A DNA stretch of 46,920 nt from a virus. Below are positions 3,065 to 46,920 of this stretch, piece by piece. The position numbers and the translations under genes are program-made. The notes under the pieces are model-generated. The model was given only the letters and a program-made list of their open reading frames with translations. It was not told where the DNA came from and made no database searches. Location of the stretch: the IMG/VR virus record IMGVR_UViG_3300005962_000016, positions 1 to 46,920 of that record. One strand, written 5' to 3'. Position 1 is the stretch's first letter. Each line of letters begins with the position of its first letter.

Positions 3065-3430
3065 TTATTTCACAGTTATTGGTATATATGATATAACCCC
3101 AAATTCAACCATTCCTGCGTTTATTAGATCCTGCAATTCTTGGCTGTTTAGGACTTTCCCTTCCTCAAGTCTTTGTTTTAGTTTTATTACCAGTGCTACA
3201 TCTTTTTCTTGGAACTCAATTGTAATTCTGTTTACCGGCACTTCGTAATTAAGAATATCAGTTAGAAGTTTTGCTGTTGCCTCGTGCCCGATTGCAGAAA
3301 CTACTTCATAGCCTTCGCTTCTTAGCTCGTTAAAAGTTTCTATAAACTTTTGCTTATCTACTATCTCAAACGCATAAATTCCTTCATTGGGCATAATTGG
3401 TGCATTCAACAGGTATAGTTTGCTTCCCAT
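3065..3430 (-). CDS. acrIII-1: AcrIII-1-like viral ring nuclease (DUF1874 / STIV B116 family), type III anti-CRISPR
   Basis: 121 aa, the usual length of the family. DUF1874 proteins of archaeal viruses and some bacteriophages bind and rapidly cleave cyclic tetra-adenylate, the second messenger of type III CRISPR, and so switch off Csm6/Csx1-type effectors. Visible hallmarks: N-terminal YLLNA (Asn9), the SAIGHEAT block with catalytic-type His49, and the C-terminal QRLEEGKVL block with Arg87 and Glu89/90. Each aligns with the corresponding block of STIV B116 and SIRV gp29 as I remember them. The start at ATG 3428-3430 follows AAAGGGGTGATAG and overlaps the upstream stop (TAATG). It sits in a cluster of tiny early genes, as expected for a counter-defence protein needed soon after entry. 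A cellular-type Crn2 ring nuclease is the alternative, but no Cas genes are nearby. Confidence 0.88.
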   Translation of the reverse strand: MGSKLYLLNAPIMPNEGIYAFEIVDKQKFIETFNELRSEGYEVVSAIGHEATAKLLTDILNYEVPVNRITIEFQEKDVALVIKLKQRLEEGKVLNSQELQDLINAGMVEFGVISYIPITVK

Positions 3431-6195: not shown

Positions 6196-6924
6196 TCACC
6201 TCCCATCATTTTCTTTTTGGGATATTATATAATATCTCCATTTATTTTTCAAGTCATTTTTTGAGCAAAAAGATCTAAAACTACAATACTTACATTCCCA
6301 TTCAAAACGAGGAAATCTCTTATAAATACCTTCCTCAAACTCATAAAGATCATACCAATCTCTTTCCACAATGTCTACCCACCTTCTGGCATCTATCTCA
6401 AACTCTTTCATTGAAAGATCATCTTTAGAAATATAGAGCAATCTTACACTGTCTGCTCTTACAAAATAAGCATCAATTAGCATTGCATAGTAAGAGACAA
6501 GCTGAAATATATGAAAAACACTAACTCCGCTGATCGTTGGGAACTTGACAGAATTAACAGTTTTAAAATCATAAAGTATTAATTTATCGCCATCTTGCAC
6601 AAGAGCATCAAGATGCCCTATTCTCTTATCGTCCTCAAGCTCCAGCTCCTTGAAGACTAATAATTTATGTTTTTCAAGAAAGTTCTGCAGATATATGTGA
6701 ATTATGTTCCCTATCTCAAAAATACGAAGAGCCCTCGGAGAGGGCGGATCCGAGGGCATTAAACCTCTTTTAAAAAGCACTCTCTTTAAAAAGCACTGCC
6801 CTGCCAAGGAGACACGGAACTTTTGAGGATGCTTATCTTGCTCATCAATTAGATCTTGCTCTAAGAGAGAGATTATAAAACTATCTTGTTCGGGGGTCTC
6901 AATCAAATAATTATTCCCGCTCAT
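6196..6924 (-). CDS. Cas4/RecB-like PD-(D/E)XK nuclease with iron-sulfur cysteines
   Basis: 242 aa. Catalytic signature of the PD-(D/E)XK fold: GHLDAL with His104 and Asp106, then LYDFKT with Asp119 and Lys121. Cys44 near the N-terminus and Cys211, Cys214 and Cys220 near the C-terminus are positioned like the four cluster ligands of Cas4/AddB nucleases. Such enzymes resect DNA ends. In phages they act in recombination and replication and can interfere with CRISPR adaptation. It lies among phage recombination and replication genes with overlaps on both sides. A Cas4 role in acquiring the spacers at 44.6 kb is possible but not shown, since Cas1 and Cas2 are absent. Confidence 0.8.
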   Translation of the reverse strand: MSGNNYLIETPEQDSFIISLLEQDLIDEQDKHPQKFRVSLAGQCFLKRVLFKRGLMPSDPPSPRALRIFEIGNIIHIYLQNFLEKHKLLVFKELELEDDKRIGHLDALVQDGDKLILYDFKTVNSVKFPTISGVSVFHIFQLVSYYAMLIDAYFVRADSVRLLYISKDDLSMKEFEIDARRWVDIVERDWYDLYEFEEGIYKRFPRFEWECKYCSFRSFCSKNDLKNKWRYYIISQKENDGR

Positions 6925-35884: not shown

Positions 35885-36332
35885 CTACTATCTCACTCCA
35901 ATTCTTTCTTATGTATTCAGATGTGTCACGGAAATAATGATAGGCTTTATTTCCTCTTTTACGTATTCCTCTGCGTACTATCTTAGCAAGTTTAGTGGCA
36001 CCTTTTTCGTCTAAACCATACTTTAGCTCAGCCCACTTTACTAACACCTTGAGTGGCACATCTACGGGAGGACCTCCCAACTCAACAATAAGTGGATAAT
36101 ATGTTTCTTTCTTTATCTTGTTAGGGTCTGAGTAAATTTCCGTGTGGATTAAGTCATCTCTTATATCAGTCTTCCATGATATACTTCTTAGCATTTGCCC
36201 AGTCACATATGGGATACTTTCGAGCAAATGAGATAGTGCTTCTGCTCTTAAGAACTCAGCAGCTTTTATTATTTTACCTGTTAAGTCTCTCTCTATGTTC
36301 TCATCAAATCTAATCTCTACTTTATATTCCAT
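35862..36332 (-). CDS. HK97 gp10-like tail-joining protein, 156 aa
   Basis: Start at ATG 36330-36332 (MEYKVEIRF) behind TTAGGTGAG; the 160-residue frame with GTG 36342-36344 is the alternative. Pattern of HK97 gp10-like proteins: KAAEFLRAEALSHLLESIPYVTGQMLRSISW and YYPLIVELGGP. Sits between connector and tail terminator genes. Stabilises the head-tail interface. Confidence 0.8.
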   Translation of the reverse strand: MEYKVEIRFDENIERDLTGKIIKAAEFLRAEALSHLLESIPYVTGQMLRSISWKTDIRDDLIHTEIYSDPNKIKKETYYPLIVELGGPPVDVPLKVLVKWAELKYGLDEKGATKLAKIVRRGIRKRGNKAYHYFRDTSEYIRKNWSEIVDGVFRNS

Positions 36333-36903
36333 AGCGCCACTCACCTAATGTTTTGAAGTAAATAGCTAATATCTTGTCTGCTCTATCTGAATATATTCTT
36401 GCTTTATCCCTGTAATTGACTACATCCACACTCATGGTTGGGTCTGAGGACTGGGCATAGTAGTTCGCCAGCTCCTCAAGACCCAGATAGCCAGCATACA
36501 CACCTATTAAATAGTTGTGCTTTTCACTTAAAGGTAAAGTGACAGATGGGATAGTAGAGTATCTTGCCCACATATTTAAGTAATCAGATGGGATCAATTG
36601 GTGGCCAAGATATGGTTGAAAGACCCTCAAATACCTTACCCCATCTGCTATGACGATGCTCCATCTATACAATCTCCCGACACTATCCCATACACTCTCT
36701 ATAAAGGAGATACCATCTGCCCAGCCAGATGGCAGATAAAATGCATAGACACTGGGCTCATAGGTAAGCTGCTCTACCTTGAAAAGAGGGTAGTCCACAA
36801 GCACACGCTCTTTTGCTACTTCTATTAGTCTTTCTTTTTGAGCGGCTGTTAGTATTCCTGCAGTATCTTGCAATATGTCATTCAGGATATCCAGAGGGTT
36901 CAT
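36322..36903 (-). CDS. Head-tail connector protein, 193 aa
   Basis: Located directly after the capsid gene and the 55-aa protein, where HK97 gp6-like adaptors are found. Tyr/Trp-rich helical protein. ATG 36901-36903 overlaps the upstream stop (ATGA), so it depends on coupling. The sequence has no clear motif, so the call rests on order and size. Confidence 0.6.
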   Translation of the reverse strand: MNPLDILNDILQDTAGILTAAQKERLIEVAKERVLVDYPLFKVEQLTYEPSVYAFYLPSGWADGISFIESVWDSVGRLYRWSIVIADGVRYLRVFQPYLGHQLIPSDYLNMWARYSTIPSVTLPLSEKHNYLIGVYAGYLGLEELANYYAQSSDPTMSVDVVNYRDKARIYSDRADKILAIYFKTLGEWRYGI

Positions 36904-43121: not shown

Positions 43122-43457
43122 CTAAATTTCTGGAACTACATAGTTTTCAAACCAGATTGTTTTGTAGGCATTGAGGAGCTGATCTCTTTGGGGCTCCCCT
43201 TCCTCATCCACCTCTACACCAAGCTCTTCGTAAGTACCTGGAAACTGAGAGTACCAAGAATCCACACTCTCAAATATCTCTAATATTATGGTAGAATCTT
43301 GATATGAACTTTTCTGACCTAGGGCTAAAAATGATGCCAACGTTCCGGCAAAAGTGTCGTAATAAACAACTCGTTGAGCGCCCTGGGGGATATTGGCCAC
43401 GTCCCCCTCTTCCCATATCTCTTCCAAGCCTATGCTTTCTAGTTTTATCTTTTTCAT
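43122..43457 (-). CDS. Hypothetical protein with IWEEGDV motif, 111 aa
   Basis: ATG 43455-43457 after AAGGAGGTGCAAGA, overlapping the upstream stop. The N-terminal region IGLEEIWEEGDVANIPQG is the same motif as in the 200-aa protein at 8717-9319. Rather acidic. Paralogues at two ends of the phage region suggest related roles. Transcribed from the promoter at 43629-43657. Confidence 0.65.
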   Translation of the reverse strand: MKKIKLESIGLEEIWEEGDVANIPQGAQRVVYYDTFAGTLASFLALGQKSSYQDSTIILEIFESVDSWYSQFPGTYEELGVEVDEEGEPQRDQLLNAYKTIWFENYVVPEI

Positions 43458-43597
43458 TCTTGCACCTCCTTATAACTTCCTAAATCTTGGAAGTATTTTT
43501 CAAAAATGGGGAAGCTTCTTAGAATTAGATATTCTTTTTCCGGGACAAACAAAAGCTTTTTATTTTTTCTGTCCCAGACAATCCTGTAAATTTTCAT
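43454..43597 (-). CDS. Small basic protein, 47 aa
   Basis: ATG 43595-43597 follows GGGAGGTTGATAGT. Sequence rich in aromatic and basic residues (YRIVWDRKNKKLLFVP). First gene behind the promoter at 43629-43657 and coupled to the next. No domain recognised. A longer frame to 43657 would include the promoter's start region, so is rejected. Confidence 0.65.
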   Translation of the reverse strand: MKIYRIVWDRKNKKLLFVPEKEYLILRSFPIFEKYFQDLGSYKEVQE

Positions 43598-43628
43598 ACT
43601 ATCAACCTCCCTTTTGCTTTTTGACTTA

Positions 43629-43657
43629 GTTATATCATATTCTTTTCCCTTTGTCAA
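43629..43657 (-). promoter_or_regulatory. Sigma-A-type promoter of the 43.5 kb gene pair
   Basis: Minus TTGACA (43652-43657), 17-base spacer, TATAAC (43629-43634). The conserved box at 43667 stands 9 bases upstream, as at 2.6 kb. Confidence 0.8.
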
Positions 43658-43666
43658 TATTTTGCC

Positions 43667-43685
43667 CCAATATAGATTTTGCCTA
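43667..43685. promoter_or_regulatory. Shared upstream box, copy at 43.7 kb
   Basis: CCAATATAGATTTTGCCTA on the plus strand. It lies between the minus-strand promoter and the solitary CRISPR repeat. Overlaps a possible plus-strand promoter (TTGCCC or TTTGCC, then TATATT at 43684-43689). A protein bound here would control both the gene pair and the repeat RNA. Confidence 0.6.
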
Positions 43686-43692
43686 TATTCAT

Positions 43693-43722
43693 GTTTGTAG
43701 TGTACCTATAAGGGATTGAAAC
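43693..43722 (+). CRISPR. Solitary CRISPR repeat
   Basis: A 30-base repeat starting GTTTGTAG and ending GGGATTGAAAC. It matches the repeats of the array at 44595 except T instead of C at position 9. It stands alone: no second repeat follows at spacer distance, and a terminator comes 29 bases later. ATTGAAAC ends are typical of type I-B/III arrays of thermophiles. Confidence 0.85.
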
Positions 43723-43751
43723 CAAAATATATTTGGATCTATAGAGGAAAG

Positions 43752-43782
43752 CGGGGACTTCTAAGGTCCCCGTTATTTTTTT
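43752..43782 (+). terminator. Intrinsic terminator after the solitary repeat
   Basis: CGGGGAC (43752-43758) pairs with GTCCCCG (43766-43772), followed by TTATTTTTTT. Confidence 0.88.
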
Positions 43783-43887: not shown

Positions 43888-44577
43888 ATGAAAATAAGAA
43901 CGAAAGATGGTGCAATTATAACTTATCAAGTGGAGGAGGCCAAAGATGGGGAAATGTGGTTCAACTACCTCGGAGAAGAAAATATCGTAGCTTTAGACGA
44001 AGCAACCTCAATAGTAATGAAGAAGAACGCCAAACTGTATATATTGCAGATTAGCGATATAGATTATTTCGATGAAAAAGAAAAAGAGATAGTGGAAGTA
44101 TACGAAGTAGATAAATACGGAAATTTAAGGACAACCAAGATGGGAATTCCTTTATTGTGGTTGCAAGATCCAGAGAAATTCAGGGCAGAAGTGCTTTATA
44201 GAGAGGAAAAAAGAGGAGAAAAGATTCAGGAAGAACAAGCTTGGGCAGAGATCGGAAAAAAATGGGAAATAGGAAAGGCGTATTATAACGTAGAACAATT
44301 TAATAAAACTAGTCTAGGTTGGGCTATTATTAGATACAACATAGAAAGTTTTGTGAGAGAGGGGAAAAGATATAGAGTAGTAATCTTGCATGATTATAGG
44401 ACCACCAGGGGAAATCACACTACAAGCTTTGTTATTTGGGAAGAACCTTTGCCACAACAACTTACGCTACAAGTGCCCAAACAATATATGGGATTAATAA
44501 TCGGGAAAAATGGCAGTAATATTAAAGCAATACAACAAAAATATGGCATAAAGATTATTTTGCAAGCGCAGGGGTAG
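43888..44577 (+). CDS. KH-domain RNA-binding protein, 229 aa
   Basis: Start at ATG 43888-43890 after GGAGGTGGAAAAG. Residues about 190-229 form a compact KH domain with the GxxG loop GKNG (206-209) within GLIIGKNGSNIKAIQQ. The N-terminal 180 residues are beta-rich and charged and unrecognised. KH domains bind single-stranded RNA or DNA. It lies between the solitary repeat and the mini-array and reads into the latter without a terminator. A role in repeat RNA binding or array transcription is tempting but unproven. Confidence 0.78.
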   Translation: MKIRTKDGAIITYQVEEAKDGEMWFNYLGEENIVALDEATSIVMKKNAKLYILQISDIDYFDEKEKEIVEVYEVDKYGNLRTTKMGIPLLWLQDPEKFRAEVLYREEKRGEKIQEEQAWAEIGKKWEIGKAYYNVEQFNKTSLGWAIIRYNIESFVREGKRYRVVILHDYRTTRGNHTTSFVIWEEPLPQQLTLQVPKQYMGLIIGKNGSNIKAIQQKYGIKIILQAQG

Positions 44578-44594: not shown

Positions 44595-44746
44595 GTTTGT
44601 AGCGTACCTATAAGGGATTGAAACTATAGTCCTCTTCTCTTTCCACTCCGTCTTTTTCTTGTTTGTAGCGTACCTATAAGGGATTGAAACCAGAGAAGGT
44701 GAATTTGTATACTGCAAAAATTTTGGTTTGTAGCGTACCTATAAGG
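44595..44746 (+). CRISPR. Mini-CRISPR array: three repeats, two spacers
   Basis: Two exact 30-base repeats at 44595-44624 and 44661-44690 (GTTTGTAGCG... ending ATTGAAAC). A third, partial repeat at 44726-44746 keeps only the first 21 bases, the usual decayed terminal repeat. Spacers are 36 bases (44625-44660) and 35 bases (44691-44725). No cas genes are nearby, so it would depend on host Cas proteins. A hairpin (GGGGTAGG/CCTACCCC) formed by the end of the KH gene precedes it, with no leader seen. I found no match to either spacer within the window. Confidence 0.85.
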
Positions 44747-44862
44747 AATAGGAGCAAGTTTCTTCCTTATGATCCTAATATAATAAAGAAAAGAGTTAAA
44801 TCTTAAAGTAGAAATAAGAAACCTTTATCTTAACCCTTTAACTCAAGGTAAAAAGTGGTGGT

Positions 44863-45114
44863 GTAGGGAATATATTTATTTTCCTCACAGAATCTTCTTT
44901 AACAGTAGAAATAGATGAAGGATTGGAAAATATTATCATATATATTCCTGAGAAAGCAGTATTGGATTTACGGACAGAATCAGGAATAGGAAAATTTTCT
45001 ATAGAATCTAATGTTTCTTTATTTTAGGAAGAAACAAAGGAAAAAGTTATTCACTAAAGATTTAAGGCAGGAATTGGGAATATATTCATAAAAGCAAGTA
45101 GTGAAATAATTTAA
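44863..45114 (+). pseudogene. Fragment of a DUF4097-like beta-repeat protein
   Basis: An 84-codon stretch in one frame with two internal stops. It reads NIFIFLTESSLTVEIDEG, VLDLRTESGIGKF and GIGNIFIKASS, like the repeated 'toast-rack' strands of DUF4097 or LiaF-type surface proteins. There is no start. It is a decayed host-like gene; its 3' end overlaps the amidotransferase end. Confidence 0.45.
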
Positions 45115-45754
45115 AAAGCTTTTCTGTATCCTCATTATTTAATCTTTCAGGATGCCACTGCACCCCAAGCAAGAAAGGATAATTTTTATGCTCAATTCCT
45201 TCTATAATTTCGAGGCCATTATCTAAAAATTTTGCAGAAATTTTTAAGTTTTCTCCTAATCTTTTAATAGCTTGATGATGAGAGCTGTTCACAATAGTTT
45301 TTTCTTTTCCTAATATCTTATATAGAAAACTATCTTTATTTAAATCTATCTCATGATAAGAATCTTTTTCATCTACTCTCCAGTGAATTTCCTTAATAAT
45401 ATTCTCTCTTTTTTTTCTTATTAAATCCTGATATAAATTCCCTTTGAAATATACATTTATCAGCTGACACCCCCTACAAATTCCTAAAATAGGCAATTTT
45501 TTATTAAAAGCAATATCTAATAATTCAAATTCAAATTTATCTCTTTCTATGTTTATTTCCAAATTATCCTCTTGGATCTTTTCATTATAAAATGAAGGAT
45601 GAATATCCTCTCCTCCAATAAAAATTATTCCTCCAATTATTTTCCAATTAATGTCCTCCTCTAGAGAAAGGACAATATAAGGTATATCAAATTCTTTTAG
45701 CTTATTTATATAATTTATATTCCCTTTATACCAACTTAAAGCAACCTTCCTCAT
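45086..45754 (-). CDS. puuD: Gamma-glutamyl-GABA hydrolase-type class I amidotransferase (peptidase C26)
   Basis: 222 aa, complete. Nucleophile Cys93 in GICRGCQ, and His201/Glu203 in VQWHPE complete the triad; IGGEDIHPSFY is typical of PuuD-type enzymes. Known members cleave gamma-glutamyl-GABA in putrescine breakdown; related ones act on other gamma-glutamyl amides. TATAAT lies about 8 bases before the ATG and no ribosome site is seen, so the mRNA may be leaderless. It is the only intact gene in the degenerate island and looks host-derived. Confidence 0.85.
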   Translation of the reverse strand: MRKVALSWYKGNINYINKLKEFDIPYIVLSLEEDINWKIIGGIIFIGGEDIHPSFYNEKIQEDNLEINIERDKFEFELLDIAFNKKLPILGICRGCQLINVYFKGNLYQDLIRKKRENIIKEIHWRVDEKDSYHEIDLNKDSFLYKILGKEKTIVNSSHHQAIKRLGENLKISAKFLDNGLEIIEGIEHKNYPFLLGVQWHPERLNNEDTEKLFKLFHYLLL

Positions 45755-45840
45755 AGTAAGTAATTATATCACACAGGTCCCTTGAATAGACTTCTTTAAA
45801 ATTGGTAAATTAAAGATAAAAACAAAAAAGAAGTAGAATT

Positions 45841-46920
45841 ATGCCTATCAAATTTGATGAAAAACAAAAATCTTTCACAATACTGCAAAAGACTCAAGGT
45901 ACATAATAAAAATTCTCAAAGATAAATATCTTAGACATAATTATTGGGGAAAAAGAATTAGTAATTCAGATTTTTCTGATGCCCTTCTTGTATCTCCTTT
46001 TGGGGCTAATCCAGATCCTAATGACAAAACATATACATTAGACTCTTTACCTCAAAATATCCTGCATATGAAAGATCAGATTTTAGACATCCTGCATATC
46101 AAAAGAACAAGAGGATAGATCAAGAATTACTGATTCAAGATTTAAATCCTTTAAAATATATAATAGGAAGCCAAAACTTGATAGACTTCCAGCTACTTAT
46201 GTTGAAGATGATAAAGAGACTCAAACTCTTGAAATTGAGCTTTTTGATGAACTTATTAATCTTAAAGTTGTCTTTTTTATACTGCATATAAAGATTATAA
46301 TGTAATTACTCGAAATGAAAAATTAGTTAATTTAGGTAACCAAAAGCTAAAGATCTTGAGAGCTTTAAACATGACAGTAGACTTTTGCACAGACAATTTA
46401 ATATCTTCATATTTGGGAACCTTTGGCAAGAGAAAGGTTTATAGAAAGAAAACCTTTAGCTCATGGATTACAAATTATCGAAAGCATAAGAGGAGAAAAT
46501 TCTCATCAACATAATCCCTTTTTTGCTCTCATCCTAAAGGATGCCAGTGAAAAATATGGAGAGGTTTATGAGTTTAGTCTTGTTTATAATGGAAATTTTG
46601 ACATACTTATAAAAGTGGATAAATTTAATAATATTAGAGTTTCTATAGGAATAAATCACTTTGATTTACGTGGATATTAAAACCTAATAAAAGCTTCCAG
46701 ACTCCAGAGGTAGTTATGACTTATTCAGACAAAGGCTCAGGTGAGATGTATAAAACCCATCACAGAGTTTATAGAAAAAGACTTTACAGAGGAGAATAAA
46801 GAGATAGAAGAAGAACTATTCTCATAAATACATGGAAAGCTACTTATTTTGATGTTAATGAAGAAAAACTTTTAAATTTAACAAAGGAAGCAAAGGAATT
46901 TGGAATAGACCTTTTTGTTC
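45841..46920 (+). pseudogene. Decayed GH36 alpha-galactosidase, N-terminal part
   Basis: Begins at ATG 45841 (MPIKFDEKQKSF). It shows N-terminal beta-sandwich blocks in shifting frames: HNYWGKRIS near 45940-45960, LLVSPFGANPDPND near 45985-46025, RERFIERKPLAHG near 46425-46460, and the junction into the catalytic barrel (ILINTWKATYFDV) at about 46815-46850. Several frameshifts and stops lie between. Continues at base 1. Together the two parts span a full-length gene of about 2.3 kb in which every domain can still be traced. Confidence 0.85.
46800..46920. repeat. Terminal direct repeat, right copy
   Basis: Identical to bases 1-121. Removing one copy gives a circle of about 46,799 bp in which the alpha-galactosidase remnant is continuous. 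Confidence 0.9.

Follow-up and report, generated by a model that had tools for sequence, protein, structure and literature searches.

The closest described counterparts of the element considered here are the RNA anti-CRISPRs (Racr), or solitary repeat units (SRUs), of phages (Camara-Wilpert et al. 2023, PMC10651486). The element is a lone repeat of the clustered regularly interspaced short palindromic repeat (CRISPR) type at 43693–43722 of IMGVR_UViG_3300005962_000016, a single virus record of 46,920 bases that was analysed as a whole (the window; all coordinates are positions in it). We consider it most likely one more instance of an established phage strategy, a new candidate Racr, and on balance we lean towards its specifying a phage-encoded decoy RNA, of one or the other of two kinds set out below.

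Like the described units, the phage element is a lone repeat of host type, intergenic, with a promoter candidate on its 5′ side and no second repeat within 100 bp; matching CRISPR types occur in the host lineage, and an acr gene is present in the same phage. This feature set satisfies the search criteria given in the published survey, which counts 2,103 viral SRUs, and SRUs with such features inhibited type I-C, I-E, I-F and V-A systems (PMC10651486). The phage repeat differs from these tested subtypes in being common to type I-B and type III loci, and its unit differs further in having its own terminator 27 nt downstream and its acr gene ~6.1 kb away, and in being known here from sequence alone. 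In RacrIF1, as described in that report, a 70–76 nt RNA lying 5′ of the Cas6 cut carries the Cas6-Cas7 filament (PMC10651486), whereas the phage RNA would have 19–30 nt before the Cas6 site if the predicted transcription start sites (TSSs) are right. The same report records that a non-targeting CRISPR RNA (crRNA) also reduced interference, and notes Cas-dependent repression by repeat-like RNAs (PMC10651486).

Two further systems bear comparison. Virus-borne mini-CRISPR arrays (Medvedeva et al. 2019, PMC6858448), with host-identical repeats and one or two spacers, resemble a mini-array at 44595–44746 of the window; in contrast to them the solitary repeat has no second repeat, and the phage mini-array lacks a leader or promoter of its own and has spacers without a target in the data searched. 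The AcrIII-1 viral ring nucleases (PF08960) act against type III signalling, and the same phage encodes one; AcrIII-1 is a protein, not an RNA, and its gene is not adjacent to the solitary repeat. To our knowledge, there have been no tests of an RNA anti-CRISPR in this host phylum and repeat type.

The solitary repeat and its transcription signals

The features of the locus are as follows.

43634–43657, minus strand: strong divergent promoter (TTGACA-17-TATAAC) of the minus-strand genes at 43122–43599, from a promoter scan
43651–43689, plus strand: two overlapping predicted promoter candidates of the solitary repeat, TTGTCA (43651)-16-TAGATT (43673) and TTGCCC (43662)-16-TATATT (43684)
43669–43689, no strand assigned: inverted repeat AATATAG-N7-CTATATT, a weak possible operator over both −10 boxes
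43693–43722, plus strand: solitary CRISPR repeat GTTTGTAGTGTACCTATAAGGGATTGAAAC, 29/30 to the Dictyoglomota repeat (C9T)
43715–43722, plus strand: expected 8-nt crRNA 5′ handle ATTGAAAC left by Cas6, the cleavage site being taken from type I-B/III repeats generally
43723–43749, plus strand: 27-nt pseudo-spacer, no target detected by sequence matching
43750–43782, plus strand: intrinsic terminator with an 11-bp stem (43750–43774) and a T-run, beginning 27 nt past the repeat

The repeat differs at one base (C9T) from the mini-array repeats at 44595–44624 and 44661–44690, as the initial annotation had stated, and a search of host CRISPR loci for the 30-base sequence likewise gave a 29/30 match to the repeats of three Dictyoglomota genomes (G001, G002 and G005); the chance expectation of a match of at least 29/30 in the window is 1e-11. 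The Rfam model CRISPR-DR2 scores it at 44.4 bits, with a cut-off of 37. Position 9 sits in a stretch, positions 9–12, that varies among Dictyoglomota genomes (CGTA, CGTG, CTCG, AGTA), and the core CCTATAAGG and the tag ATTGAAAC are both intact. The next copy is 902 bp away, and within 100 bp the best ungapped match to the repeat is 15/30. The plus strand corresponds to the crRNA sense, because the host arrays have their leader ahead of GTTTG..., and the solitary repeat thus reads in the crRNA sense; the DNA 5′ of it has no similarity to host leaders above that of shuffled sequences. Its predicted fold is that of the host repeat, and is weak (−2.6 to −2.9 kcal/mol) and no better than shuffles.

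The two promoter candidates, with −10 boxes 4–15 bp 5′ of the repeat, lie in the same sense and within the 250-bp promoter criterion, and they predict TSSs at ~43685 and ~43696. The placing of the repeat at a predicted transcription start with a strong terminator after it, which had been claimed from the outset, is thus borne out. The terminator hairpin is one of six strong hairpins found by our own scan of the whole window, and it argues for a transcript from the solitary-repeat unit because there is no other plus-strand gene for it to serve: the genes to the left (43122–43599) are on the minus strand, and none is encoded on the plus strand between 43100 and 43693. The predicted RNA is ~87–98 nt, and because it starts at the repeat, the fragment 5′ of the Cas6 cut would be only 19–30 nt, and the 3′ fragment, which includes the handle, 68 nt. 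None of 200 shuffles folds as well as the 90-nt unit (z −3.1), chiefly owing to the terminator. A regulated box between the repeat and the divergent promoter, suggesting timed expression, had also been proposed, and an inverted repeat is indeed present at 43669–43689; it makes a weaker operator than was claimed, with 7-bp arms matched in quality by 4.4% of equally long stretches of the phage.

The host and its CRISPR-Cas systems

That the phage infects Dictyoglomota (the phylum of the hot-spring bacterium Dictyoglomus) is supported by a spacer match; two further features of the window are listed here.

36435–36471, plus strand: protospacer for a Dictyoglomaceae array spacer, 34/37 positions matching
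3065–3430, minus strand: AcrIII-1 family protein (PF08960), E=1.2e-26

The spacer is the first one seen in the G001 array (L005), and shuffled spacers match at 20–24 positions. Relative to the minus-strand gene at 36322–36903 its crRNA would lie in antisense, the orientation that type III systems require.

The host repeat, GTTTGTAGCGTACCTATAAGGGATTGAAAC, is found in Dictyoglomaceae metagenome-assembled genome arrays and in two G005 arrays. The 85 repeats detected in G005 all have this sequence, and the G001 and G002 arrays carry the G005-identical repeat except at their terminal repeats. These terminal repeats are degenerate (L006:184–213 and L005:2462–2491), and that of the G002 array carries C9T. 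The attribution of type I-B and type III systems to the host holds: G002 has a type I-B locus ordered cas6-cas8b(TM1802)-cas7-cas5-cas3-cas4-cas1, followed by a cas2-like open reading frame (ORF), a leader and the host repeat, and Cmr-type genes, as read from the sequence rather than by profile search, adjoin an array in L005 and a repeat in L058. One Cas6 presumably serves the repeat common to the I-B and Cmr loci. A single repeat on contig C8 of G007 was considered as a second solitary repeat and set aside; it lies at the contig end before host cmr genes and is probably an array end.

The AcrIII-1-family protein resembles solved viral structures such as 2j85 and 2x4i, and its presence suggests that the phage is under type III pressure. 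The proposal that protein and RNA inhibitors form a pair stands insofar as both genes belong to the same phage. The pairing is weaker than supposed, since around the circle the two lie ~6.1 kb apart, outside the 1 kb enrichment zone described in the SRU report (PMC10651486). The protein at 6196–6924 is of the PD-(D/E)XK type, with a weak similarity to Cas4 (PF01930, E 8e-4, below the cut-off).

A putative decoy RNA

The identity, orientation and solitude of the repeat, the terminator, the host systems and the link between host and phage are read directly from the DNA, and from these we infer transcription, cutting, binding and inhibition, in the following scheme. The phage promoter would direct an RNA of ~87–98 nt, extending from at or just before the repeat to the terminator. 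Host Cas6 would bind this RNA and cut it ahead of AUUGAAAC, and the 5′ product (19–30 nt) might be able to hold Cas6. The 3′ product (68 nt; the 8-nt handle, the 27-nt pseudo-spacer and the terminator hairpin) would mimic the start of a crRNA and, having no downstream repeat or useful guide, could seed dead I-B and Cmr complexes. A Cas6 decoy, a dead crRNA made up of 5′ handle, 27 nt and hairpin, or both together, appear more likely than action in the manner of RacrIF1.

In type I-B and type III systems Cas6 often departs once it has cut, leaving Cas5-like subunits to hold the handle, which makes a decoy of the handle type plausible. More specifically, it is possible, if somewhat doubtful, that the 68-nt handle-plus-hairpin RNA starves both the I-B Cascade and the type III effector, alongside AcrIII-1 and with a geometry opposite to that of RacrIF1. 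One RNA could act against both systems because the Dictyoglomota I-B and Cmr loci have one repeat and probably one Cas6.

Several observations weigh against a decoy RNA. The promoters are fair rather than outstanding: counted over the two strands they rank 40th and 79th in the window, within roughly the top 2–5% of 60-bp bins, a good placing that does not settle the matter, because 9/12 sites are common. The original proposal of an RNA anti-CRISPR candidate retains its host-matching repeat, promoter candidates, terminator and host systems, but the RacrIF1 geometry is not predicted, and in the RacrIF1 experiments of the SRU report a variant with the handle only was inactive and the upstream product was responsible for the effect (PMC10651486). 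Passively captured host DNA lies near the solitary repeat. Finally, none of the related viral contigs examined contains the full repeat, and conservation as a unit is not supported. The 18-nt CCTATAAGGGATTGAAAC is present in seven viral contigs, where it belongs either to different repeats or to sequence that looks coding. The related phage L064 has, on its minus strand (1378–1391), an exact copy of the last 14 nt of the repeat, TAAGGGATTGAAAC (core end plus crRNA tag), ~40 nt before a hairpin, and one of 300 shuffles is as good. The gene beside the solitary-repeat locus has a relative in L064, and a search for relatives by way of that gene led to the same two phages again. As an orthologous unit the L064 half repeat was rejected, the similarity of the flanks not being significant (98/1000), and it serves as a lead only.

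Activity of the unit would bring Dictyoglomota, and a repeat common to type I-B and type III, within the range of RNA anti-CRISPRs, and one RNA could then disarm two systems. Its compact layout, with the repeat first and the terminator 27 nt on, bears on the question of inhibition by the 5′ handle side, a possibility excluded for type I-F. In this locus one phage combines a solitary repeat with a mini-array and with captured host DNA whose junction lies at a repeat, and phages may acquire such units in this way.

Captured host DNA and alternative explanations

To the right of the solitary repeat the following features are found.

43888–44577, plus strand: KH-domain ORF preceded by a strong promoter of its own (TTGACA 43827, TAAGAT 43851), from sequence and promoter scan
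44595–44690, plus strand: leaderless mini-array, two exact repeats (44595–44624 and 44661–44690) around spacer 1, from sequence
44691–44746, plus strand: spacer 2 and a third repeat (44726–44746) truncated at 21 nt by the junction with host DNA, from sequence
44758–46799, no strand assigned: captured, decaying host chromosome, continuing at 1–1166 across the joint of the circle

The mini-array, with two spacers and host-identical repeats, lies directly past the KH stop codon and a hairpin. After 21 exact nt its third repeat gives way to host LiaF-like DNA, with ATAAGGGA (microhomology ATAAGG) present at the joint in both the host gene and the repeat, which suggests that the junction was formed by microhomology joining. 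The captured segments, together ~3.2 kb, are collinear with Dictyoglomota chromosomes at about 70% and contain a LiaF-like gene fragment, a C26 amidotransferase and an alpha-galactosidase pseudogene.

Because the third mini-array repeat is cut at a junction with captured host DNA, passive capture is a real rival to the decoy RNA, and the solitary repeat may instead be a functionless relic, a host-array repeat captured or left behind by recombination. The 3.2 kb of decaying host DNA beyond the 21-nt repeat speaks for such events in this phage, as does the occurrence of C9T in a degenerate terminal repeat of a host array. We nevertheless regard this explanation as rather unlikely: a relic would be expected to have a spacer, leader or second repeat nearby, and none is present within 100 bp, the upstream DNA not being leader-like; the repeat lies exactly between promoter candidates and a terminator, with core and tag intact; and it is 902 bp from the mini-array, beside the gene with the L064 relative.

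The intact 8-nt handle and the unique sequence after it would also fit a guide RNA, in which the 27-nt pseudo-spacer steers the host Cascade or Cmr complex, for example to repress a cas promoter or against a rival phage. This seems improbable, as shuffled sequences match the five cas loci and two cmr loci compared just as well as the pseudo-spacer does, and phage relatives and host loci give only matches of 12–14 nt, the size expected by chance. That the repeat serves for landing or recombination, either in integration into host arrays or by offering a false target for spacer insertion, is highly improbable even though the phage has a repeat-host DNA junction, for neither repeat has an adjoining leader, the junction is at the mini-array and not at the solitary repeat, no integrase was found among the ~45 phage proteins scanned, and a promoter and terminator would be superfluous.

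The mini-array is without leader and promoter, the similarity to host leaders ahead of it not exceeding that of shuffles, and for this reason its RNA would probably arise by read-through from the KH gene. No targets of its spacers were found in the phage, in phage relatives or in seven host genomes, and there was no exact 22-nt match in IMG/VR; sampling of Dictyoglomus viruses is thin. The KH ORF, between the solitary repeat and the mini-array, encodes 229 amino acids with a half KH domain at the C-terminal end; no relatives of the protein were found, and its AlphaFold model, with a predicted local distance difference test score (pLDDT) of 41, was not interpreted.

Identical 121-bp ends of the window indicate a circle of ~46.8 kb, the minus strand of which encodes terminase, portal, protease, capsid and tail genes; the relatives L064–L067 have structural genes in common with the phage. 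A GC-rich stretch at 1255–1350, with a DNA fold no better than that of shuffles, is bounded by AATTGGC/GCCAATT arms and lies near the junction of captured host and phage DNA.
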